Origin: Gemmatimonadota bacterium
GTDB taxonomy: Bacteria > Gemmatimonadota > Gemmatimonadetes > Longimicrobiales > Gaopeijiaceae
Direction: 5' to 3'
Assembly (NCBI GenBank): GCA_003248075.1
Contig: QJYK01000116.1
Coordinates: 1-43,556 of the forward strand
Length of the DNA stretch: 43,556 nucleotides
In this document: piece by piece, positions 1-24,182 of the stretch
Position numbering within the stretch: position 1 is the first letter of the stretch
How the letters are laid out: every line of letters begins with the position of its first letter
Notes under the pieces: model-generated
Database searches by the model: none
Told to the model about the DNA's origin: nothing
The model's input: only the letters and a program-made list of their open reading frames with translations
Program-made: the position numbers and the translations under genes

Positions 1-708
1 GACGGGCGCGGCGGTGATCTCCTGGCCCTCGATCTTCTTCTGGATGAGCTCCATGGTCTTGTCGTACACCTCGTCGTGATAGACCGAGGCGTCGAAGCTC
101 TCCGAGGCGGCCTGGTCGATGAGCTGCATCGCCAGCTTGAGCTCTGCCTCGTTGACGTCGCCCTCCTCACGGGGCACCTCTTCGAAGGACCGGAGCTCCT
201 CGGAGTAGTACAGCTGCTCGAGCAGGAGCCCGTCCTCGTGTGGGCGGACCATGACCAGGTATTCCTTACCCCGGGTCGCCTGTTTGGCGATCGCCACGCG
301 GCCCGACTCCCGGAGAGCCGCGGAAAGGAGCCGGTAGGCACGCGCGCCGCCCTTGTCCGGGCCGAGGTAGTAGGCCTTGTTGAAGTACAGCCGGTCGACC
401 TGCTCGGCGGGAACGAAGCTCACGATGTCGATGGAATCCGACTTGGGTGCCTCGACGACCTTCAGCTCCTCCTCGTCGAAGAGCACGAACTGCCCCTTGG
501 CGAACTCGTACCCCTTCGCCATGTCCTCGCGGGGGACCACGGCGTCGTCGGTCGGGCACACGTACTGCTGGCGCACCCGCGTACCGCAGGCGCGGTGGAC
601 CATGTTGAAGGAGATCTTCCGGGACGACTCGCCCGTCGAGTAGAGCTTGACGGGGAGGGACACGAGCCCGAAGGCGATCGTCGAGGTACCGATAGCGCGA
701 GCGGCCAT
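1..708 (-). CDS. ku: Ku protein, non-homologous end joining (C-terminus cut by window edge)
   Basis: Bacterial Ku forms a homodimeric ring that threads onto double-strand DNA ends and recruits LigD. The 236 visible codons begin MAARAIGTSTIAFGLVSLPV, the typical start of the family, followed by the Ku core: a RACGTRVRQQYVCP-like segment near residues 38-51, then FAKGQFVLFDEEEL and VSFVPAEQVDRLYF. The reading frame stays open to base 1, so the C-terminal LigD-interacting tail is outside the window. I place the start at the ATG at 708 because homology begins at its first residue and because a promoter lies only 9 nt upstream. The matching ligD gene is about 7.6 kb away on the other strand. Identification is confident from family-wide sequence features. 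Confidence 0.95.
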   Translation of the reverse strand, partial: MAARAIGTSTIAFGLVSLPVKLYSTGESSRKISFNMVHRACGTRVRQQYVCPTDDAVVPREDMAKGYEFAKGQFVLFDEEELKVVEAPKSDSIDIVSFVPAEQVDRLYFNKAYYLGPDKGGARAYRLLSAALRESGRVAIAKQATRGKEYLVMVRPHEDGLLLEQLYYSEELRSFEEVPREEGDVNEAELKLAMQLIDQAASESFDASVYHDEVYDKTMELIQKKIEGQEITAAPV

Positions 709-747
709 AGTTCGGCAAACATATGTTCACGCGGGAGCCCGGCGCAA
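709..747 (-). promoter_or_regulatory. Putative leaderless promoter of ku
   Basis: Reading the minus strand, TTGCGC (747-742) is followed after 18 nt by TATGTT (723-718), then 9 nt, then the ku ATG at 708. A transcript starting about 7 nt after the -10 box would begin within a few bases of the ATG, and no Shine-Dalgarno sequence is visible. The -35 match is only partial. The same spacing (18 nt, then 9 nt to ATG) is seen at ligD. Confidence 0.45.
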
Positions 748-851
748 CGAATTCGCCCCGGGTGGGCAGGCTGGCCGGCCGGAGATCCGTCTGCTACCCT
801 GTCCCCCCTCGATTCCGGACCGGCGCATCCGAACCGTGAAGGGGGTACACG

Positions 852-2954
852 ATGGCTGAGCGAACGATCCGATCCACGCTGGCGCTCCTGGCCCTCGCCG
901 CTTGTACGCCACCGTCCGGCCAACCCGTGAGCGGTGGGGCCGCGACCGGCATGCCCAGTACCGCGCGCGGAGAGTGGCCTCTGTACACGGCCGACGTGCA
1001 CGGGACGCGGTACTCGCCGCTGGATCAGATCGACGCCTCGAACTTCGACGATCTCGAGGTGGCATGGTCGTTCAAGACCGACAACCTCGGGAATCGGCCC
1101 GAATACAAGCTCGAGGGCACCCCGTTGATGGTAGGCGGCCGTCTCTACACGACCGCCGGCACCCGGCGCGCCGCCATCGCGCTCGATGCCCGCACCGGAG
1201 AGCTCCTGTGGATGTACAGCATGGACGAGGGCGAGCGGGGCGGATATGCACCTCGCCAGCTCTCGGGACGCGGCCTCTCCTACTGGACGGACGGTCAGGG
1301 TGACGAGCGGGTCCTGTACGTCACGCCGGGCTATCGGCTCATCGCCCTGGACGCGAAGACCGGCGACCCGATCGCGAGCTTCGGCGACAACGGCGTCGTC
1401 GACCTCAAGGTCGGCGCGGTGAAGGGTGCGGGGGAGCAGGTCGACCTCGTGACCGGTGAGATTGGCTTGCACTCGGCGCCGACCGTGACCGGAAACCTGA
1501 TCATCGTCGGCGCGGCCATGAAGGAGGGGTTCACCGTCGAGACCTCGAACAACACCAAGGGCCTCGTCAGGGCCTACGACGTCCGCACGGGCCAGATGGT
1601 CTGGCGCTTCGACACCATGCCGGGACCGGGCCAGCCGGGGAACGAGACCTGGCTCGACGGCTCCTGGGAGCGGAACGGAAATACCGGCGTGTGGACGCAG
1701 ATCACCGTGGACGAAGAGAACGGCCTCGTGTATCTGCCGGTCGAGTCACCCACCTCCGACTTCTACGGTGGCTCCCGACCCGGAGACAACCTCTACGGCG
1801 AGAGCCTCGTGGCGGTCGATCTCGCGACCGGCGAGTACCGCTGGCACTTCCAGTTCGTCCACCACCCGATCTGGGACCACGACATGTCGTCGGCGCCCCT
1901 CATCGCCGACGTGGAGATCGACGGCCGCATGCGTCAGGTCGTCGCGGTGCCCAGCAAGCAGAGCTACCTGTACGTCTTCGACCGGATCACGGGCGAGCCG
2001 ATCTGGCCGATCGAGGAGGTGCCGATGCCGGCCGGCAGCGTGCCGGGCGAGTGGTACGCCCCGACGCAGCCGATTCCGACCAAGCCGCCGCGCTACGCGC
2101 GCAACACGCTCGAGGTGCCCGGGGACGTGATCGACTTCACGCCACGCATGCACCGCGAAGGCCTGAAGATCCTGGAGCGTTACCAGACGGGCCCCATCTA
2201 CAACCCGCCCGTCGCCGGCGACGTGAACGGGGTCCTCGGCGCGATCCTCGTGGGGAACGCCTCGGGGGGCACGAACTGGCCCGGTGGAGGCATGGACCCG
2301 GAGACCGGCATCGTGTACGCGCAGGCCTCGACGTCCAACGTGTCCGGCGCGTCGGTGACGCAGCCGCCGGAGGGCTTCTCCGACATCGCCTACCTGTACG
2401 GGCTCAAGGGGCAGACCTTCCGCCTCTATCACGCCGCCGGTACCGGCCAGAACCCGGCCGCCCCCGAGCCGGCGCGCACCTTCGGCCCCCGGGTCGAGAG
2501 CGACGTCGACGTCCCGGGCCTCGACGTAGACGGCCTTCCGATCGTGAAGCCGCCCTACGGCGTGCTTTCGGCCATCGATCTGCACAGCGGGGACCTGCTC
2601 TTCAGCGTGCCTCACGGGGACACGCCCGACCAGATCCGAAACCACCCCGAGCTTCGGGGGATGGACATTCCCAAGACTGGACAGCGGGGAAGCGTCGGGC
2701 TCATCGTGACCAAGACCCTCGTGATCCTTGGCGACCCGCAGGTCACCACGACCGACGAGCACCCGCGCGGAGGCATGCTCCGCGCCTACGACAAGCAGAC
2801 GGGCGAGCAGGTTGGCGCCGTCTGGATGCCGGCGGCGCAGAGTGGGTCGCCCATGACCTACGCCATCGACGGAAAGCAGTACATCGTCGTTGCGGTGAGC
2901 GGCGGACCCTACTCGGGCGAGTACATCGCGTTCACGCTGCCGGAGGAGATGTAG
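852..2954 (+). CDS. PQQ-dependent dehydrogenase, secreted lipoprotein
   Basis: A quinoprotein dehydrogenase of the membrane-type glucose/alcohol dehydrogenase superfamily, 700 residues. The N-terminus carries a lipoprotein signal peptide with lipobox LAAC (Cys about residue 18), so the enzyme is probably anchored on the periplasmic side. The body shows repeated beta-propeller blades of the PQQ type (GTPLMVGGRLY, ALDARTGELLW, AYDVRTGQMVW, AVDLATGEYRWHF). The motif VHHPIWDHD at about 336-344 matches the HHDLWDYD region that supplies the catalytic Asp in quinoprotein glucose dehydrogenases (here D342 or D344). The gene lies 6 nt before a c-type cytochrome, its probable electron acceptor. The ATG follows a purine-rich GAAGGGGG. 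The substrate (sugar or alcohol) cannot be told from sequence. Confidence 0.9.
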   Translation: MAERTIRSTLALLALAACTPPSGQPVSGGAATGMPSTARGEWPLYTADVHGTRYSPLDQIDASNFDDLEVAWSFKTDNLGNRPEYKLEGTPLMVGGRLYTTAGTRRAAIALDARTGELLWMYSMDEGERGGYAPRQLSGRGLSYWTDGQGDERVLYVTPGYRLIALDAKTGDPIASFGDNGVVDLKVGAVKGAGEQVDLVTGEIGLHSAPTVTGNLIIVGAAMKEGFTVETSNNTKGLVRAYDVRTGQMVWRFDTMPGPGQPGNETWLDGSWERNGNTGVWTQITVDEENGLVYLPVESPTSDFYGGSRPGDNLYGESLVAVDLATGEYRWHFQFVHHPIWDHDMSSAPLIADVEIDGRMRQVVAVPSKQSYLYVFDRITGEPIWPIEEVPMPAGSVPGEWYAPTQPIPTKPPRYARNTLEVPGDVIDFTPRMHREGLKILERYQTGPIYNPPVAGDVNGVLGAILVGNASGGTNWPGGGMDPETGIVYAQASTSNVSGASVTQPPEGFSDIAYLYGLKGQTFRLYHAAGTGQNPAAPEPARTFGPRVESDVDVPGLDVDGLPIVKPPYGVLSAIDLHSGDLLFSVPHGDTPDQIRNHPELRGMDIPKTGQRGSVGLIVTKTLVILGDPQVTTTDEHPRGGMLRAYDKQTGEQVGAVWMPAAQSGSPMTYAIDGKQYIVVAVSGGPYSGEYIAFTLPEEM

Positions 2955-2960
2955 TCGGGA

Positions 2961-3410
2961 ATGGTGTCGAGAGCCGGGGCCACCCTCTCGGTCGGCGTCC
3001 TCGTTGCGACCCTCGGGGCCGCGGGCCTCGAGGCGCAGGCGAAGTCGACCTGGGACGGCGTGTTCAGCAAGACGCAGGCGGGTCGCGGAGGCGCGCTCTA
3101 TCAGGCCGAGTGTGCCTCGTGCCACGGCCCCCAGCTCGGGGGGATCGACGCAGCGCCGGCCCTCGTCGGCGGCCGGTTCGCGTCGAACTGGAATGGGGTG
3201 ATCATCGCGGACATGGTGGACCGCATCCGCATATCCATGCCCCAGAACGCGCCCGGGAAGCTCAGCCGCCAGCAGGTCACGGACGTGCTCGCCTATATCC
3301 TGAGCCGCAACGGATTCCCGGCAGGCGACAAGGAGCTGCCGCGCCAGGCGGGATTCCAGCGCGCCATCGCCTACTCGGCGTACAAGAGCGGGGGTCCGGG
3401 CGCGCCCTGA
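2961..3410 (+). CDS. Class I c-type cytochrome, exported
   Basis: A 149-residue periplasmic cytochrome. An N-terminal signal peptide (hydrophobic run about residues 8-25, ending GLEAQA) is followed by one heme-attachment motif, CASCH at 51-55. A likely axial Met is M93 in SMPQNAPG, the usual spacing for class I cytochromes. The segment LSRQQVTDVLAYILSRNGFPAG is the conserved C-terminal helix. It starts 6 nt after the PQQ dehydrogenase stop, so the two should be co-transcribed, with the cytochrome taking electrons from reduced PQQ. A hairpin terminator follows. The C-terminal tail after residue 125 has no recognised feature. Confidence 0.92.
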   Translation: MVSRAGATLSVGVLVATLGAAGLEAQAKSTWDGVFSKTQAGRGGALYQAECASCHGPQLGGIDAAPALVGGRFASNWNGVIIADMVDRIRISMPQNAPGKLSRQQVTDVLAYILSRNGFPAGDKELPRQAGFQRAIAYSAYKSGGPGAP

Positions 3411-3435
3411 CCCCGCACCTTCCCGAAGGCCCGGG

Positions 3436-3469
3436 ACCCGGTCGGCGGCGCCGGCCGGGTCTTCTCTTG
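3436..3469 (+). terminator. Intrinsic terminator after the dehydrogenase/cytochrome operon
   Basis: An 11-bp GC-rich stem, ACCCGGTCGGC (3436-3446) pairing with GCCGGCCGGGT (3450-3460) through one G-U pair and a 3-nt loop, is followed by a pyrimidine-rich CTTCTCTT. It lies 25 nt past the cytochrome stop. Confidence 0.7.
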
Positions 3470-3483
3470 CTCCCGATGCCCGC

Positions 3484-3523
3484 TTGATCGAGTGCCCTCG
3501 GCTTATTAAAGTGAAAAAATCAC
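3484..3523 (+). promoter_or_regulatory. Promoter and palindromic operator of padR-1
   Basis: TTGATC (3484-3489) and TAAAGT (3507-3512) are separated by 17 nt. A small inverted repeat, GTGAAAAAATCAC (3511-3523), covers the end of the -10 box and the likely transcription start. A repressor bound there would block the promoter, which fits PadR autoregulation. The AT-rich patch stands out from its 70% GC surroundings. The assignment of PadR to this site is inferred. Confidence 0.5.
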
Positions 3524-3542
3524 CATAACTGGGAGAGGCGGC

Positions 3543-3875
3543 GTGGAGGGGTCCAAGCTGGGTGATCTGGAGCTGCTCGTGCTCCTGGCCGCGCTGAGGC
3601 TGGGACCGGAGGAGGCGTATCCGGTCAGCATCGTCGGCGAGATCGCGGGGCGCTTCGGGCGCTCGGTGCAGCGCGCCTCGGTCTACGTGGTGCTGAAGCG
3701 CCTTGAACAGAAGGGCCTGGTCACGACCCATCTGGGGGACGCCCTCCCCGAGCGCGGCGGCAAGCCCCGGCGGCTGGTGAGGGTCGAGGCGCCCGGCGTG
3801 GAAGCCGCCCGTGACGTGCGTGCCGGGTTGGAGCGCATGTGGTCGGGGCTGGGCGCGCTCGAGGTCGACTCGTGA
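3543..3875 (+). CDS. PadR-family transcriptional regulator (pair 1)
   Basis: A 110-residue winged-helix regulator. LGDLELLVLLAALRL at the N-terminus, a recognition-helix region with SVQRASVYVVLKRLEQKGLV (about 41-60) and the wing RGGKPRRLVRVEAPG are the PadR pattern. PadR proteins are usually repressors that respond to stress or small ligands. The GTG start has a good Shine-Dalgarno (GGGAGAGG) 4 nt upstream. Its stop overlaps the GTG of the ADOP permease by 4 nt (GTGA), a common arrangement in Acidobacteria and Gemmatimonadota in which PadR controls the permease. A palindrome at 3511-3523 is a plausible autoregulatory operator. Confidence 0.85.
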   Translation: MEGSKLGDLELLVLLAALRLGPEEAYPVSIVGEIAGRFGRSVQRASVYVVLKRLEQKGLVTTHLGDALPERGGKPRRLVRVEAPGVEAARDVRAGLERMWSGLGALEVDS

Positions 3876-6553
3876 GCCGCCGCGCGGCGGGCCAAGGACC
3901 GCGCCCCGCGCCCCAGCGCCTTCCGTGGACCGTGCGTACGCTACTACGCGTGTTACCGGCCGAGCGCCGGGAGGACCTGGCCGGCGACTTCGAGGAGGCC
4001 CACGCCACGCGACGCCGGCGTCTGGGCGCCGCCGGCGCATGGCTCGCGACGACCGTCGATGCCGGCCTGGTGGCGGTGGCGTTCGCGCGCATGACGGGGA
4101 AGGGGGGAAGTCGGATGGGTGGGATGTCGTGGCTGGAGGTGCGACTCGGACTCCGCCTGATGCGCAGGCAGCCGCTGCTCGCGGGCACGGCGGTCTTCGC
4201 GATCGCCGTGGGGATCGGCCTGGCCGCGACGGGTTTCACGCTGCTGGACGCCGCGACCGGGCGCTCGCTCCCGTTCGAGGGTGGATCGGGGTGGTTCCAG
4301 CTCGACGTCCGGCGCATGCCCGAGGGGCGTGAGGCTCCGCTCGACCACGCGCGGTACCGCGCGCTGCGCGAGCGCGCGTCGTCGATCGCCTACCTTGGGA
4401 GCTTCCGGCTGGCGCAGCCCAACCTCCGCACCGGCGACGACGAGCTGGAGACGGTCGCCGCCGCGTATGTGACGCCTTCGGCGTTCGCTCGGCTCCCCTT
4501 CGCGCCGGTGGTGGGCCGCACCCTGACCGAGGCGGACGCGAGGCCGGGGGCGGAGCCGGTCGTGCTCCTGCGCGAGGATCTGTGGCGCCGCCGCTTCGGC
4601 GCCGACCCCGCCGTCGTCGGCTCGTCGATCAAGCTGGACGGGGAACGGCGAACCGTGGTGGGCATCATGCCGTGGGCGTTCGCGTTTCCCGTGCAGCACC
4701 AGGTCTGGATGCCACTGGACGACGACACGCGGGGGGGCTCCGTGGAGGGCCCGACGGCCGGAGTCTCGACGTTCGGCGTGCTGGCGCCGGGTGTGTCGTT
4801 CGCCGAGGCCCGCTCGGAAGTGCGGTTCCTGGCGGACCAGGTGGCACCGCAGGCCGGTGAACAGGGCTCCGTGGTCGTCGATGTGAAACCCTACACGCTC
4901 GCGTTCGCGACCAACGGCTTCGACCTCTTCCTCACGGCAGTCCTTGCCCTGCTCGTTCTGGTTCTGATCGTGACCGCCGCCAACCTCGCCAACCTGATCC
5001 TGGCCCGGACGTACGCGCGCGTGGGTGAGCTCTCCATCCGCGCGGCGTTGGGCGCCTCGCGCGGACGGCTGGTCGGACAGGTCTTCGTGGAGGTCCTTCT
5101 CCTCACGCTCCTCGGGGCGGCCCTTGGCGTGCTGGGGTCGCAGCTGGCGCTCGGGTGGCTCGGGGGCCTGGTCCCCGATCTCCCGTTCTGGTTCGACCTC
5201 GGCCCGCGTATCGGCGTCCTGGCCTTCGCCACGACGCTCGCGTTCCTGGCCGCAGCCATCGCGGGCGTCACACCTGCGCTCAGGGCTACCCGGCGTGACC
5301 CGGTCGACGGGCTCCGCGGGAGCGGTCGCGGTGGAGGCGACGTGCGCTTCGGGCGCGTGAGCGCCGCGCTCGTCGTCTTCGAGCTGTCGATGTCGGTGGC
5401 CTTCGTCGCCGCGGCGGTCGTGCTCGTGCGCGGTCTTCTCGGGTACGGCTCGGGGGGCACGTCGCTGGAAGAGTCCTCGGTGCTCACCGCACGGGTCTAC
5501 ATCCGGCCGCCCATGGCGCCCGGTGCCGAGTGGGCTGTGCGCGAGCCGTGGCAGATCGACTCGATCCGCACGTTGCAGGAGAGCGTGCTGCGGGAGGTCT
5601 CCACTCTCGGCGGGATCACCGGCGTCGGCGCGACGACGCTGCTCCCGCGCATCGAGGGACGTGCGACGCCCTTCCAGGTCGAGGGTGCGGACGGGTTGGC
5701 CGTGGAGCGGCTCGCGGACGCGTCGGTCACCGAGGGGTACTTCGAAGCACTGGGCGTGGCCGCGTCCGCAGGGCGGCTCTTCGTCGCGGAGGACCGACGC
5801 GAGGGCGCCCCTCCCGTCGCGATCGTGAACGAGCCGTTCGTCCGGCGCGTGCTCGGCGGACGCAATGCGGTCGGACGGCGTATCCGGCGTCCAGCCGGCC
5901 CGGACGACGAGCCGGGCCCATGGATCGAGATCGTGGGGGTCGTGCCCGATCTCCGGATGAGCCCCGCCGACCCTGCCCGGGCCGCGGGCGTGTATCGCCC
6001 GCTCGGATGGAGCAACTACTTCTACGTGGCGCTCCGGGGCGGCGCCGACCCGCGCGCCATGGAGAGACCGCTGCGCGAGGCGGTGTCGGCGGCGGACCCG
6101 TCGATCCGGGTGGACGACGTCATGCTCCTCGAGCGTGCGGGCTGGGAGGCACGCGCGCTCCTGCAGGGGCTGAGCGTCTCGATGGCCCTGATGGGGGGCA
6201 TGGCTGGCTTCCTGTCGCTGATCGGCATCTACGCGATCCTGTCGTTCAGCGTGACCCGACGCACCCGGGAGATCGGTGTGCGCATGGCCCTGGGCGCGCC
6301 TCGCGGCGCGGTGGCGCGATCGGTCTCGGCCCGAGCGGGTCGTCAGATCCTGATGGGCACGCTCCTGGGAGTCGGCCTCGCCGTGCCGCTCATGAAGGGC
6401 ACCGCGCTCCTGCCGATCCGTGTGCCCCCTGGGGGACCCTCGCTGCTGACCGCGACGGCGCTGGCGATCGCGGCGATCGGCGCACTGGCGTGCTGGCTGC
6501 CGACCGCCCGGGCCGCCCGTGTGCAGCCGACCGAAGCGCTGCGCTCGGAATAG
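3872..6553 (+). CDS. ADOP-family ABC transporter permease (pair 1)
   Basis: An 893-residue permease of the ADOP type (acidobacterial duplicated orphan permease). The N-terminal soluble segment RTLLRVLPAERREDLAGDFEEAH (about 22-44) is the ADOP-specific region. A MacB-like periplasmic core domain and the first FtsX domain (about 360-480) follow, then a second core domain and FtsX domain (about 760-890, with TRRTREIGVRMALGAPRGAV). No ATPase gene is adjacent, hence 'orphan'. I chose the GTG at 3872 because it overlaps the padR stop by 4 nt; an in-frame start at 3839 would overlap padR by 37 nt. The cargo is unknown; MacB relatives move lipids, peptides or drugs, or act in envelope mechanotransmission. 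Confidence 0.88.
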   Translation: MSRRAAGQGPRPAPQRLPWTVRTLLRVLPAERREDLAGDFEEAHATRRRRLGAAGAWLATTVDAGLVAVAFARMTGKGGSRMGGMSWLEVRLGLRLMRRQPLLAGTAVFAIAVGIGLAATGFTLLDAATGRSLPFEGGSGWFQLDVRRMPEGREAPLDHARYRALRERASSIAYLGSFRLAQPNLRTGDDELETVAAAYVTPSAFARLPFAPVVGRTLTEADARPGAEPVVLLREDLWRRRFGADPAVVGSSIKLDGERRTVVGIMPWAFAFPVQHQVWMPLDDDTRGGSVEGPTAGVSTFGVLAPGVSFAEARSEVRFLADQVAPQAGEQGSVVVDVKPYTLAFATNGFDLFLTAVLALLVLVLIVTAANLANLILARTYARVGELSIRAALGASRGRLVGQVFVEVLLLTLLGAALGVLGSQLALGWLGGLVPDLPFWFDLGPRIGVLAFATTLAFLAAAIAGVTPALRATRRDPVDGLRGSGRGGGDVRFGRVSAALVVFELSMSVAFVAAAVVLVRGLLGYGSGGTSLEESSVLTARVYIRPPMAPGAEWAVREPWQIDSIRTLQESVLREVSTLGGITGVGATTLLPRIEGRATPFQVEGADGLAVERLADASVTEGYFEALGVAASAGRLFVAEDRREGAPPVAIVNEPFVRRVLGGRNAVGRRIRRPAGPDDEPGPWIEIVGVVPDLRMSPADPARAAGVYRPLGWSNYFYVALRGGADPRAMERPLREAVSAADPSIRVDDVMLLERAGWEARALLQGLSVSMALMGGMAGFLSLIGIYAILSFSVTRRTREIGVRMALGAPRGAVARSVSARAGRQILMGTLLGVGLAVPLMKGTALLPIRVPPGGPSLLTATALAIAAIGALACWLPTARAARVQPTEALRSE

Positions 6554-6687
6554 GCCGGCACCCACCCACGGCACCGGGCGGTTCCGCGGACTTCAGGGGA
6601 CGATGAGCCCCGCCGCCGGCGTTTGCGGTATCGCTATCCGCATGGCCGGGATCTCCACCGACGGAGGGTACCGGCCGCACACCAATG

Positions 6688-6707
6688 ACGCCGGAAGGGT
6701 CCGGCGT
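6688..6707. promoter_or_regulatory. Perfect inverted repeat upstream of the 6731 gene
   Basis: ACGCCGGA (6688-6695), loop AGGG, TCCGGCGT (6700-6707): an 8-bp perfect palindrome 23 nt before the ATG at 6731. It could be an operator or a hairpin in the mRNA leader. The rest of the 6554-6730 gap holds no ORF I can support. Confidence 0.35.
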
Positions 6708-6730
6708 GACACCGGGAGGGGACAAAACCC

Positions 6731-7243
6731 ATGAAGACCATCATGCTCGCGACTCTCGCGACGCTGACGATCCATCCCTCGAACCACACCACGTCTGCCG
6801 CGCCCACGTCGCCAGGCGACCCCACCATCGAGGCCGTGCGTCGCGCGACGGCCCGCTTCCGCGACCTCGAAACCGCGCAGGCCGAGGGGTGGAGCCTCGC
6901 GCTCACGGGTTGCATGGAGTCCACGGAGGGCGCGATGGGCTACCACTTAGGCAACGAGAAGCTGATCGGTGACGGCGGTCAGCTCGACCCGACCACGCCG
7001 GAGGCGCTCCTCTACGAGCCTCAGGTCGACGGGTCGATGCGCTTCGTGGCCGTCGAGTACCTGGTACCGTTCACCGACTGGAAGGGCGACCAGCCGCCGG
7101 TGTTCCTGGACCACGAGATGATCCCGAACCAGGAGTTCGGGGTGTGGACGCTGCACCTCTGGCTGGTCCCGAACCCCCAGGGGACCTTCGTGGGCTGGAA
7201 TCCACGTGTGACCTGCGCGCACGCCTCCACGGCGGGGCACTGA
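6731..7243 (+). CDS. Conserved secreted protein of unknown function
   Basis: A 170-residue protein with a weak N-terminal export signal (MKTIMLATLATLTIH). The pattern GWSLALTGCMES...GAMGYHLGN...LLYEPQVDG..RFVAVEYLV...WTLHLWL.PNPQGTFVGWNPRVTCAH resembles a widespread actinobacterial/Gemmatimonadota family that I know only as hypothetical. Two Cys (in TGCMES and VTCAH) could form a disulphide, and His in MGYH, LDHE and LHLW could bind metal, but this is speculation. The ATG is preceded by GGGAGGGG with good spacing. A strong hairpin follows the stop, so the gene is probably monocistronic. Confidence 0.75.
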   Translation: MKTIMLATLATLTIHPSNHTTSAAPTSPGDPTIEAVRRATARFRDLETAQAEGWSLALTGCMESTEGAMGYHLGNEKLIGDGGQLDPTTPEALLYEPQVDGSMRFVAVEYLVPFTDWKGDQPPVFLDHEMIPNQEFGVWTLHLWLVPNPQGTFVGWNPRVTCAHASTAGH

Positions 7244-7259
7244 CCGCTGACGCGGAGCG

Positions 7260-7291
7260 GGGGTGGGTGGGCCGGCGAGCCCACCCACCCC
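7260..7291. terminator. Perfect 13-bp hairpin between the 6731 and 7314 genes
   Basis: GGGGTGGGTGGGC (7260-7272) pairs perfectly with GCCCACCCACCCC (7279-7291) around a 6-nt loop. It begins 17 nt after the stop of the upstream gene. There is no U-tract, so it may be a Rho-assisted terminator or a 3'-end stabiliser. Its position argues against the GTG at 7263 as a start for the next gene. Confidence 0.55.
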
Positions 7292-7313
7292 GACCGTCGA
7301 CGGGGAGGGGACC

Positions 7314-8300
7314 GTGGGGAGGTGGAGGTGGTGTGTCAGGATCGTGGCGACGTGCGGGCTCGTGTGGTGGATCTGCCTGCTCGCGACACCGTCGCTGGCG
7401 CTGAAGCTCTGGTGGGGAGGTCTGGTGCCGCTGATGCCGGGCATGTTCCTGATCAATCCGAGGGTGTGGAGGAACGTCTGCCCCGTGGCGGCATTGGAGG
7501 TCTGGAGCGGAGAGCGGGTCGGCCGGACGTTGGGCGGGGCGTCGGCTATCCGGGCCGGGGGCGTCGGGACCGTGCTCTTCGTCCTGATCGTCTCGGGCAG
7601 GGCGCCTCTGTTCGACCACAGTGGTCTCGCGCTCGCCCTGGTCGTGGCGCTGGCGACGTCCGTGGCGGGCGTGCGCGGACGGACGCACGCGGTCAGGGCC
7701 GGCTTCTGCAACTCGATCTGTCCGCTGGGGGCGGTGGAACGATTCTACGGGCAGCGCGCCCTGGTGGCCGTGGCGCCCGCCCACTGTCCATCGTGCACGG
7801 TGTGCACCCTGCGTGGGTGCCCGGACGTGGCGGGCGACAAGGCGATGCGGCAGCTGGTGGGCGGCCCCGGGGGTCGGGTGGGTTGGCTTCTGCGCCCGCA
7901 AGGCGCGTTCGCGGGCGCCATGCCGGGTCTGATCCTCGGCTACGCGTTCGGAGGACCCGAGGCGACGTGGGCGGCGGGGCTGACGGCGGTGACCGCCGGG
8001 TGCGTCGGGTCATGGCTCACGGTGCTCGCGATCTCGCTCGTCGTGCCGGAGGCCCGGGGACGGGTCCCACCCGTCACGGCCGCCGTGTCCGCCGTGCTCT
8101 TCTACCAGACGGTCGGGTCGACGTCCGTGGGCGTCTGGGGCCTCCCGGCCCTCTCGTGGGGGGTGCGCTGGCTGGGGACGGTGCTGGCGCTCGTGTGGGC
8201 GGTCCACCTGCGGTCGCGCTTCCCCGGGGCTCCAGGGCGTCGCTCGGCGGGTCGGTCCCGGACGCGCTCGCTCCCGGTGCTCGTCACCCAGCCTGGCTGA
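7314..8300 (+). CDS. Polytopic membrane protein with a 4Fe-4S-type cysteine motif
   Basis: A 328-residue membrane protein with several hydrophobic helices (for example residues 8-24, 85-105, 207-260, 285-305). A soluble loop carries C158-x2-C161-x2-C164-x4-C169 (CPSCTVCTLRGC), a 4Fe-4S ligand set, preceded by NVCPVAALEVWSG and GFCNSICPLGAVERFYG. The latter resembles the CxxxCPxG signature of NapH/NosR/RdxA-like membrane ferredoxins. Unlike NapH it has only one clear cluster motif. It may pass electrons across the membrane. The start is set at the GTG at 7314 because GGGGAGGGG lies just upstream and the earlier GTG at 7263 falls inside a hairpin. Exact function and partner are unknown. Confidence 0.75.
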   Translation: MGRWRWCVRIVATCGLVWWICLLATPSLALKLWWGGLVPLMPGMFLINPRVWRNVCPVAALEVWSGERVGRTLGGASAIRAGGVGTVLFVLIVSGRAPLFDHSGLALALVVALATSVAGVRGRTHAVRAGFCNSICPLGAVERFYGQRALVAVAPAHCPSCTVCTLRGCPDVAGDKAMRQLVGGPGGRVGWLLRPQGAFAGAMPGLILGYAFGGPEATWAAGLTAVTAGCVGSWLTVLAISLVVPEARGRVPPVTAAVSAVLFYQTVGSTSVGVWGLPALSWGVRWLGTVLALVWAVHLRSRFPGAPGRRSAGRSRTRSLPVLVTQPG

Positions 8301-8316
8301 GCGACCCTTCGGGAGG

Positions 8317-8346
8317 TTGGCTTCGGTCCCGCGCGGGTCTTATCGT
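8317..8346 (+). promoter_or_regulatory. Putative leaderless promoter of ligD
   Basis: TTGGCT (8317-8322), an 18-nt spacer and TATCGT (8341-8346) end 9 nt before the ATG at 8356. The geometry matches the ku promoter (18-nt spacer, 9 nt to ATG). No ribosome-binding site is visible, which fits a leaderless mRNA. Confidence 0.45.
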
Positions 8347-8355
8347 CCGGCCGCC

Positions 8356-10878
8356 ATGAGCCCCGCCCGAGACGATCGTCTGAGGAAGTACCGCGAGAAG
8401 CGCGCTGCCGGTCGGACGCCCGAGCCGTTCGGCGGCGAGGTCGTGGTCGGGGGCAGCACCTTCGTGGTCCAGAAGCACGACGCCCGAGCGTTGCACTGGG
8501 ACCTGCGCCTCGAGCTGGACGGGGTCCTACTCTCATGGGCGGTGCCCAAGGGACCGTCGCCCAACCAGGCGGACAAGCGCCTCGCCATGCAGACCGAGGA
8601 CCACCCGCTCGAGTACGCCGAGTTCGAAGGGATCATCCCCGAGGGCGAGTACGGCGCCGGGCCCATGATCGTGTGGGACAGAGGCCGATGGTCGCCGGTG
8701 GAGGACGCGCACGAAGGCCTGGAGAAGGGCAAGCTCCTCTTCGACCTATACGGCCACAAACTCATGGGCCGATGGACGCTGGTGAAGACCCGGCAGGCGC
8801 CCAACTCCTGGCTGCTCATCAAGGAGCGCGACGCGTTCATGGACGAGGCGGGGGGCACCGAATCCTATCCGGACGACTCGATCTACTCGGGTCTCACCGT
8901 GGAGGAGTTCGCCCACGCCGACGAGCGAGCAGAGGAGATGGCCGAGCGCATCGCCGACCTGGGCGCGAAGGAGGCGGCGCTGCGTGCGGACGACGTCGAT
9001 CTCACGCTCGCTTCCTCGAGCGAGCAGCCGTTCTCACGCGAGGGGTGGATCTTCGAGCTCAAGTACGACGGGTATCGCCTCCTCGCCGAGCGAGTGGGTC
9101 GTGAGCCGTATCTGCGCTCCCGGGCCGGTCACGACCTCACGGTGACCTTTCCGGAGATCGCGCGCGCGGTGCGTGGCCTTCCCTTCGAGGGGCTGATCCT
9201 CGACGGGGAGGTGGTCGTGCACGACGCCGACGGGCTCCCGTCCTTCTCGAAGCTCCAGAAGCGGGGGCGCATCCTGAACAAGTCGGACGCATTGCGCGCG
9301 AGCGTGGAGCTCCCCGCGGTCTACTATGCGTTCGACATCGTCGCCCTCGAAGGGTACGACCTGCGCCAGCTTCCCCTGATCCGTCGCAAGGAGATCCTCA
9401 AGGGCGTCCTGCCCTCGGTCGGCCCGATCCGTTACTCGGACCACATCCTCGAGCAGGGCCAGGCGATGTACGAGCAGGTCACGGCCATGCGCCTCGAGGG
9501 CATCGTCGGGAAGAAGGCGGACTCGCCCTACCGCGGGGGACGATCGACGAGCTGGGTGAAGGTGAGGACCGTGCGCGTCGAAGACTTCGTGGTGGTGGGT
9601 TGGACGGAGCCGAAGGGAGGGCGTTCGGGCTTCGGCGCGCTGCACCTGGCCCAGTACGACGGAGCCGATCTCGTCTATCTGGGAAGCGTGGGCTCGGGCT
9701 TCACCGACGCTCAGCTCGATGAGGGACTGGAGCTTCTGCGACCGCTCGAGGTCGACGGCTGCCCCTGTACAAGCGGACCGATGCCGAAAGGGAAGGCGCA
9801 GCACTGGACGCGTCCGGAGCTGGTCGTCGAGATCAAGTACAAGGAGCTCACGGACCAGGGGCTCGTGAGACAGGGGTCCTTCTCCCGGTGGCGAGACGAC
9901 AAACCGCCCTCGGAGTGCCTGGTCGAGGGAGCGGGCACCGGCGAGCCGCCGGACCCCGCCCCACCGGCGTCGGTGGAGGCCACGGAGCGATCCGTGCCGT
10001 TCACGAACCTCGACAAGATCTTCTGGCCGGACGAGGGCTACACGAAGGGCGATCTGATCGAGTATCACCGCGCGGTCGCCCGCTGGATGTTGCCGTACCT
10101 GATCGACCGTCCCCTCGTCATGACCCGCTATCCGGATGGCATCGAGGGAAAGTCGTTCTTCCAGAAGGACGCACCGCCGTACGCCCCGGATTGGATCCGC
10201 CGTGTGACCGTGTGGAGCGAGGGGTCGGAGCGCGAGCTGTCGTACTTCGTGGTCGAGGACGTCGAATCGCTGCTCTATGTGATCAACCTCGGGACCATCC
10301 CCATCCACATCTGGTCCAGCCGCATCGAGACGTTGGCGACGCCGGATTGGTGCATCCTCGACCTCGACCCCAAGGAGGCGCCCTTCGAACACGTCGTCGA
10401 AATAGCGCTTATCCTGCACGACATCTGTGAGGAGATCGGATTGCCGTCCTTCCCGAAGACCAGCGGTTCGTCCGGCATCCACGTGCTGGTACCCCTGGGC
10501 CGCCGCCTCACGTACGAGCAGTCACGCACCCTGGGGCAGCTGCTGGGTCGGGTGGCCGTAGCGGAACGGACCGACATCGCGACGCTCACGCGCAACCCCG
10601 ACCGACGGGAGGGCAAGGTGTACGTCGACTTCGTACAGAACGGACACGGACGTCTCCTCGCGGCGCCCTTCACGGTGCGGCCGCGTCCCGGAGCGACCGT
10701 GTCCGCGCCGCTGGAATGGAGCGAGGTGAACAAGCGCCTCACGATCGAGCAACACACGATCGCGTCCGTCCCGCGCCGCATGAAGCGACTCGAGGAGGAC
10801 CCGCTGCTGCCCGTGCTGGAGCTGGAGCCGGACCTGCTCGGCGCTCTGGAGCGCCTGACGCACTGGTTCGACAAGTAG
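8356..10878 (+). CDS. ligD: ATP-dependent DNA ligase D (phosphoesterase-ligase-polymerase)
   Basis: The multifunctional end-joining ligase, 840 residues, domain order phosphoesterase, ligase, polymerase as in Pseudomonas. Phosphoesterase domain, about 25-180: H41, D49 and H83 line up with the metal ligands known from Pseudomonas LigD (H42, D50, H84). Ligase domain, about 210-520: the adenylated lysine is K236 in ELKYDGYR, with the OB fold ending near KYKELTDQGLVRQ. Polymerase/primase domain, about 545-840: FTNLDKIFWP starts it, and the catalytic pair lies in DLDPKE (D669, D671). All catalytic residues are present, so the protein should be active with Ku. I chose the ATG at 8356; an upstream in-frame GTG at 8317 lies in the putative -35 box and adds unconserved residues. 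Confidence 0.96.
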   Translation: MSPARDDRLRKYREKRAAGRTPEPFGGEVVVGGSTFVVQKHDARALHWDLRLELDGVLLSWAVPKGPSPNQADKRLAMQTEDHPLEYAEFEGIIPEGEYGAGPMIVWDRGRWSPVEDAHEGLEKGKLLFDLYGHKLMGRWTLVKTRQAPNSWLLIKERDAFMDEAGGTESYPDDSIYSGLTVEEFAHADERAEEMAERIADLGAKEAALRADDVDLTLASSSEQPFSREGWIFELKYDGYRLLAERVGREPYLRSRAGHDLTVTFPEIARAVRGLPFEGLILDGEVVVHDADGLPSFSKLQKRGRILNKSDALRASVELPAVYYAFDIVALEGYDLRQLPLIRRKEILKGVLPSVGPIRYSDHILEQGQAMYEQVTAMRLEGIVGKKADSPYRGGRSTSWVKVRTVRVEDFVVVGWTEPKGGRSGFGALHLAQYDGADLVYLGSVGSGFTDAQLDEGLELLRPLEVDGCPCTSGPMPKGKAQHWTRPELVVEIKYKELTDQGLVRQGSFSRWRDDKPPSECLVEGAGTGEPPDPAPPASVEATERSVPFTNLDKIFWPDEGYTKGDLIEYHRAVARWMLPYLIDRPLVMTRYPDGIEGKSFFQKDAPPYAPDWIRRVTVWSEGSERELSYFVVEDVESLLYVINLGTIPIHIWSSRIETLATPDWCILDLDPKEAPFEHVVEIALILHDICEEIGLPSFPKTSGSSGIHVLVPLGRRLTYEQSRTLGQLLGRVAVAERTDIATLTRNPDRREGKVYVDFVQNGHGRLLAAPFTVRPRPGATVSAPLEWSEVNKRLTIEQHTIASVPRRMKRLEEDPLLPVLELEPDLLGALERLTHWFDK

Positions 10879-23498: not shown

Positions 23499-24182
23499 TC
23501 AGCTCTCGTCCGGCACCACGTAGATGCGACGTGCGAGGTCGCGACGCACCGTGAGCTGGCTACGCCCGTACTTCCCGACCCGAAGGCGGATGACATCCTC
23601 CGTGCCACCCGACGCGACGACGACGCGCGCGCCCGGGGTGAGGCCCTTGGCGTCCATCGTCCGCAGGCGGTCCGGATCCTCGTCACGCACCGCGCGGATC
23701 CGTAGTGGGCGACCGGGCTCGGCGTCGCTGAGCGTCGAGAAATCGGTCTCCTCGATCTCTCCCGCGCTGGTGGGGATCGGGGTTCCGTGCGGGTCGTGGC
23801 TGGGGTGCTCCAGCGCGGCCGCCATGCGCTCGACCAGGACGTCGGAGACCGCGTGCTCCATGCGCTCCGCCTCCTCGTGCACGTCGTCCCAGGAGTAGCC
23901 CAGCCGCTCGCACAGGTAGCTCTCGATGATCCGGTGTCGGCGCAGGACCTTGAGCGCTTCCCGCGTCCCCGCGGCAGTGAGTCGCACCCCTCGGTACGGG
24001 ACGTGCTCCAGGAGGCCGTTCTCGGCCATGCGCTTGACCATCCCGGTCACGGAGGCCGGCTGGATCCCGAGCGCCTCTGCCACCGCACTCGTGGAGGGGG
24101 CCTCGCCGCGCTCGGCGAGTCCGTAGATGGCCTTGAGATAGTCTTCGACCGATCGGGATAAGCCCTGACTGGCACGGGTCAT
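23499..24182 (-). CDS. DtxR/MntR-family metal-dependent transcriptional regulator
   Basis: A 227-residue regulator with three parts: winged helix (SRSVEDYLKAIYGL ... TGMVKRMAENGLLEH, residues 9-60), dimerisation and metal-binding domain (about 70-140) and a C-terminal FeoA/SH3-like domain (150-227). Likely metal ligands are D14, H83, E87, H102, E106, E109 and H110. E106 sits where DtxR has Cys102 and MntR has Glu99, and D14 matches MntR Asp8, so Mn(II) or a mixed specificity is possible. K17 replaces the Glu11 of B. subtilis MntR. Such proteins repress metal-uptake genes when metal is bound. No metal transporter is adjacent; the TerC gene is 8 kb away. Confidence 0.9.
   Translation of the reverse strand: MTRASQGLSRSVEDYLKAIYGLAERGEAPSTSAVAEALGIQPASVTGMVKRMAENGLLEHVPYRGVRLTAAGTREALKVLRRHRIIESYLCERLGYSWDDVHEEAERMEHAVSDVLVERMAAALEHPSHDPHGTPIPTSAGEIEETDFSTLSDAEPGRPLRIRAVRDEDPDRLRTMDAKGLTPGARVVVASGGTEDVIRLRVGKYGRSQLTVRRDLARRIYVVPDES

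Follow-up and report, generated by a model that had tools for sequence, protein, structure and literature searches.

Leaderless mRNAs are linked with 70S initiation, and, to our knowledge, how bacteria control their Ku levels has been little explored except in sporulating and mycobacterial models. Genes led by a TANNNT element are an established leaderless class in Actinobacteria and Deinococcus-Thermus (Zheng 2011, PMC3160421; PMC12340547), and leaderless genes average 39% in Deinococcus-Thermus (Zheng 2011, PMC3160421). A term search of these two papers returned no mention of Gemmatimonadota, and a full-text literature search for leaderless together with Gemmatimonad yielded no dedicated study. 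A second point of reference is the B. subtilis-type LexA box, with the consensus GAAC-N4-GTTC (PMC4234289).

Here, we analyzed a 43,556-nt stretch of DNA (hereafter "the window"; Gemmatimonadota contig QJYK01000116.1), in which ku lies on the minus strand and ligD on the plus strand, with 7.6 kb of unrelated genes between them. What is new here is a conserved inverted repeat, RAACATATGTTY, within which the ku -10 element is located.

Promoter geometry of ku and ligD in the window

The ku coding sequence (positions 1–708, minus strand; Pfam Ku, PF02735, E 4.5e-50) is cut off at its 3′ end by contig position 1 and opens with an ATG at 706–708 (minus), the N-terminus of the protein (MAARAIGTSTIAFGLVSLPVK...) matching that of relatives; its nearest relatives that carry a name come from Gemmatimonadota MAGs. 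The ligD coding sequence (8356–10878, plus) encodes a full three-domain LigD, i.e., PE (3′-phosphoesterase), ligase, and Prim-Pol (primase-polymerase), with its ATG at 8356–8358 (plus) and an in-frame TTG at 8317 as an alternative start. Separately, ku genes 54–79% identical to that of the window were seen on contigs (L215–L223; JACZWN, VBDE, VBCA, QHXX, and others) labelled Proteobacteria, Betaproteobacteria, or Acidobacteria, which probably belong to MAGs that were mislabelled or misbinned. The PadR-family gene at 3543 has a possible autoregulatory operator in front of it, an AT-rich GTGAAAAAATCAC inverted repeat (window 3481–3540).

The initial annotation had described one and the same promoter geometry for both genes, and this is exact, i.e., TTGCGC-18-TATGTT-9-ATG for ku and TTGGCT-18-TATCGT-9-ATG for ligD. 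For ku, the -35 element TTGCGC (742–747, minus) lies 18 nt from the -10 element TATGTT (718–723, minus), with TTGC at that exact distance in 13 of 14 relatives, and a 9-nt discriminator/leader (709–717, minus) separates the -10 element from the ATG. As transcription usually begins 7 nt from the -10 element, we infer a start at A711, which would leave a 3-nt leader (ACU-AUG). For ligD, the -35-like TTGGCT (8317–8322, plus) overlaps the in-frame alternative TTG start, and the -10-like TATCGT (8341–8346, plus) is followed by a 9-nt discriminator/leader (8347–8355, plus). The reported lack of a visible ribosome-binding site also holds, as neither ATG is preceded by a suitably spaced Shine-Dalgarno sequence; a GGGAGG is present upstream of ligD (8311–8316), but it is 39 nt away from the ATG. 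With a TANNNT element at gap 9, a predicted 3-nt leader (in the class, transcription starts at the start codon or no more than about 5 nt from it), and no Shine-Dalgarno sequence, both genes have these sequence features of the leaderless class. Their -35 and -10 elements match the consensus at only about 3–4 of 6 bases each, and dinucleotide shuffles of both upstream regions produced TTG-N16..19-TANNNT-N5..9-ATG in 0.1% of cases for ku and 0.03% for ligD, with a motif definition that is post hoc.

For genome statistics, we used 441 kb of the window genome (364 called genes) and 400 kb of a relative (G025); the called gene starts are approximate, and ORF calling missed ku, which runs off the contig. 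In the window genome, Shine-Dalgarno motifs peak at -12 to -8. TANNNT elements at gaps of 5–9 nt number 13 for 345 ATG starts, where farther gaps would predict 6.1; seven of the 13 have gap 6, and most of the genes concerned have no Shine-Dalgarno site. The excess at leaderless positions was weaker in the relative (12 vs. 8.1 expected). The signature was found in about 4% of the sampled window-genome genes, and hence the class is ordinary; another near-leaderless member in the window is a DtxR-like regulator starting at 24182 (minus). The gap of 9 at ku and ligD exceeds the modal gap of 6.

Conservation of the two promoters among relatives

We found ku in 41 of the 96 genomes examined from the family and in 86 of the 154 from the order, and aligned upstream regions from 14 genomes of nine genera carried TTGC-N18-TATGTT or a one-base variant. 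These 14 rows were selected for carrying the palindrome, so that the conservation of the box columns (12–14 of 14, other spacer columns mostly 5–8 of 14) is biased; the -35 element and the spacing are free of that bias, and here TTG was found in 14 of 14 genomes, always exactly 18 nt from the -10 element. The gap between the -10 element and the ATG is 9 nt in seven of these genomes (g1, g19, g21, g33, g35, and g37) and 5–8 nt in the remaining ones, except for two with 31–36 nt. In five of the seven gap-9 genomes, the seventh base after the -10 element is the A of ACT-ATG, a plausible transcription start that would give a 3-nt leader. The genus g26 has TTG-18-TAN(G/A)TT-6-ATG, TATACT-6 and TATAAT-5 occur in two genera from a different family, and a core promoter lies within 10 nt of the ku ATG in 12 of 25 genera (shuffle mean 0.09). 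Leadered ku genes, several with a Shine-Dalgarno sequence, were found in genera g12, g5, g3, and g29 and in family f2, with leader lengths of 31–77 nt in g3, g29, and g5. As judged from these alignments, the ku promoter geometry is real and selected, and a near-leaderless ku mRNA with a leader of about 3 nt is well supported as a prediction because the boxes and the 18/9 or 18/5–8 spacing are kept across many genera.

In sister families, five ku upstream regions (L176, L178, L180, L181, and L196) carry a putative XerC/XerD site (e.g., TTTACATAATGTATATTATACGAAATGG) about 50–75 nt upstream of ku, which resembles the dif consensus and suggests that ku may lie beside the chromosome terminus there.

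For ligD, TANNNT lies 5–9 nt before the ATG in 7 of 13 genera (shuffle mean 0.47, with 0 of 2000 shuffles reaching 7), and hexamers, spacing, and gap vary among relatives; for example, G018 has TTGCGC-16-TATCCT-7, and at the ligD ATG of G020, G077, G083, and G090 (LigD 77–80% identical) no TANNNT promoter was found. The 18/9 geometry was not found even in the nearest relatives (75–80% LigD identity). A near-leaderless ligD mRNA is moderately supported as a prediction. The conservation expected for the hexamers and the 18/9 spacing was borne out for ku and failed for ligD, and the leaderless mRNAs proposed in the initial annotation are upheld for ku, in near-leaderless form, and only moderately for ligD. 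Common regulation of the two genes, which had been read from the shared geometry, is not upheld: the 18/9 spacing is not conserved for ligD and therefore provides no evidence for it, and the ku palindrome is missing at ligD. Although the two spacings are identical in the window genome, it is very improbable that they share a dedicated regulator or sigma factor recognizing this geometry, given that the ligD boxes and spacings vary at such close identity, that the hexamers are ordinary, and that 18 nt is inside the normal spacer range. The identical 18/9 spacing in the window looks like a coincidence.

The two genes are divergent in every genome that has both on one contig, with gaps of about 0.1 to 12 kb and often only about 100 bp. 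In the window, they have separate promoters 7.6 kb apart, which leaves no shared intergenic site to coordinate them. Two species from a single genus (L033 and L034) have TACCTT/TACATT-6-ATG just upstream of ligD, at the start of a 10-codon ORF that ends in a stop overlapping the ligD ATG (ATGA), possibly a leaderless leader peptide coupled to ligD.

An inverted repeat over the ku -10 element

The repeat, a candidate operator, overlaps the ku -10 element at positions 717–728 (minus strand GAACATATGTTT, containing RAACATATGTTY). Exact RAACATATGTTY is single copy in the window genome, in each of nine genomes the sole exact copy sits just upstream of ku, and the palindrome is present with at most one mismatch at ku in 11 of 17 family genera. 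With at most one mismatch, it was also observed between fdhD and divergent formate dehydrogenase genes, and upstream of mreB, each in two genera (L138 and L146; L103 and L137). A RAACATATGTTY regulon was considered and rejected, the sites being scattered (mreB, fdhD/formate dehydrogenase, and others) with no repair set among them.

The palindrome is probably an operator, since it has been retained after a shift of the promoter, after the gain of a leader, and in genomes that have no divergent gene upstream. In genus g26, the active -10 element has moved, leaving the repeat 8 bp upstream of it; in g5, its arms are intact (GAACACATGTTT) and the -10 element is weakened; and it is kept in g3, g29, and g5 despite the 31–77-nt ku leaders. 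These separations of repeat and promoter, together with an AAC conserved like the -10 element (14 of 14) yet no known promoter element, make it unlikely that we are looking only at a conserved sigma70 promoter, with AACA upstream of the -10 element as promoter context, even though most genera retain the -35 element, the spacing, and the -10 element as a set and TTGCG doubles as the lexA -35. No likelier is a symmetric bidirectional -10 element without an operator, inherited from an ancestral compact divergent ku/ligD intergenic region. Such an origin would fit the divergent order of the two genes and their frequent proximity, a TATGTT that reads on both strands, and, on the g26 reverse strand, a TATGAT/TATGGT at a distance of about 14 nt to the ligD ATG. 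However, inspection by eye showed no correctly spaced TTG-type -35 element on the strand of ligD, and in G049, G077, and G083 the repeat, including its left half, is intact though ku and its upstream neighbor point the same way, so that no divergent gene needs a reverse-strand -10 element. Without certainty, we favor an operator over both a bidirectional -10 element and mere promoter context.

As to which regulator might read such an operator, the repeat could be an SOS box through which a LexA-family repressor reading GAAC-N4-GTTC puts ku under DNA-damage control. Indeed, GAACATATGTTC equals the B. subtilis-type consensus (PMC4234289), it lies over a promoter like the Bacillus box, and ku is a repair gene. 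However, the lexA promoters of this family carry TTCGG-N6-TTCGG direct repeats instead of the ku-type GAAC-N4-GTTY, and the promoter of a second lexA-like gene is without the box in 20 genomes; the genes near other boxes (mreB, fdhD, and others) are not SOS genes, and no SOS gene with a box was found in a comparison that covered the two lexA-like genes and these neighbors of other boxes. An SOS box in this sense is quite unlikely. Because of the differing repeat, control of ku by the main LexA of the family was rejected as a direct match. The second lexA-like gene was also rejected as the regulator, its near-invariant promoter (TTGACAC...TTAGGATAG) lacking the box, as was an XRE/CI-like gene with a box of its own (G000:C224), which is absent from most box-bearing genomes and not co-distributed.

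The lexA promoters are of interest in themselves, being highly conserved with two TTCGG-N6-TTCGG direct repeats of 11-nt period (G000:C217:54731-54916; L061–L090), a candidate LexA operator of this Gemmatimonadota family. Likewise, the second lexA-like gene (L228–L247) has near-invariant CTTTCTTGACAC-N15..17-TTAGGATAG in most of the 20 genomes and is a good yardstick for the sigma70 consensus of the family.

Proposed control of ku and comparison with known systems

Our main reading, to which we assign a probability of roughly 55%, is that a near-leaderless ku is expressed from TTGC-N18-TATGTT with a repressor operator over the -10 element, and that ligD has its own promoter with a coincidental 18/9 spacing. 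A housekeeping-type sigma factor would transcribe ku from this promoter, and since the -10 element ends 9 nt before the ATG, transcription would begin about 3 nt ahead of the ATG (ACU-AUG), and translation of the mRNA would involve no Shine-Dalgarno interaction. The 10–12-bp inverted repeat over the -10 element would most likely be the operator of a dimeric repressor that blocks RNA polymerase at ku, and ligD would use its own near-leaderless promoter without the repeat. It is a doubtful further step that ku alone is under a dedicated damage-responsive repressor acting on this Bacillus-SOS-like palindrome; if true, end joining would be switched on, with Shine-Dalgarno-independent translation, independently of both ligD and the main LexA regulon. 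Together, these results turn a pattern seen by eye into a testable prediction, i.e., NHEJ genes with near-leaderless mRNAs in a largely uncultured phylum, and point to a specific 12-bp site as a possible control element of ku.

Relative to TANNNT-led leaderless genes, ku and ligD share a -10 element a few nucleotides before the ATG, no Shine-Dalgarno sequence, and a high G+C genome, but differ in a gap of 9 nt rather than 6, and the roughly 4% of sampled genes in the window genome contrasts with the Deinococcus-Thermus average of 39% (PMC3160421). Relative to bacterial two-gene NHEJ (Ku + LigD), the proteins are the same and the genes are divergent neighbors in most relatives, whereas in the window they stand 7.6 kb apart, each with its own predicted near-leaderless promoter.
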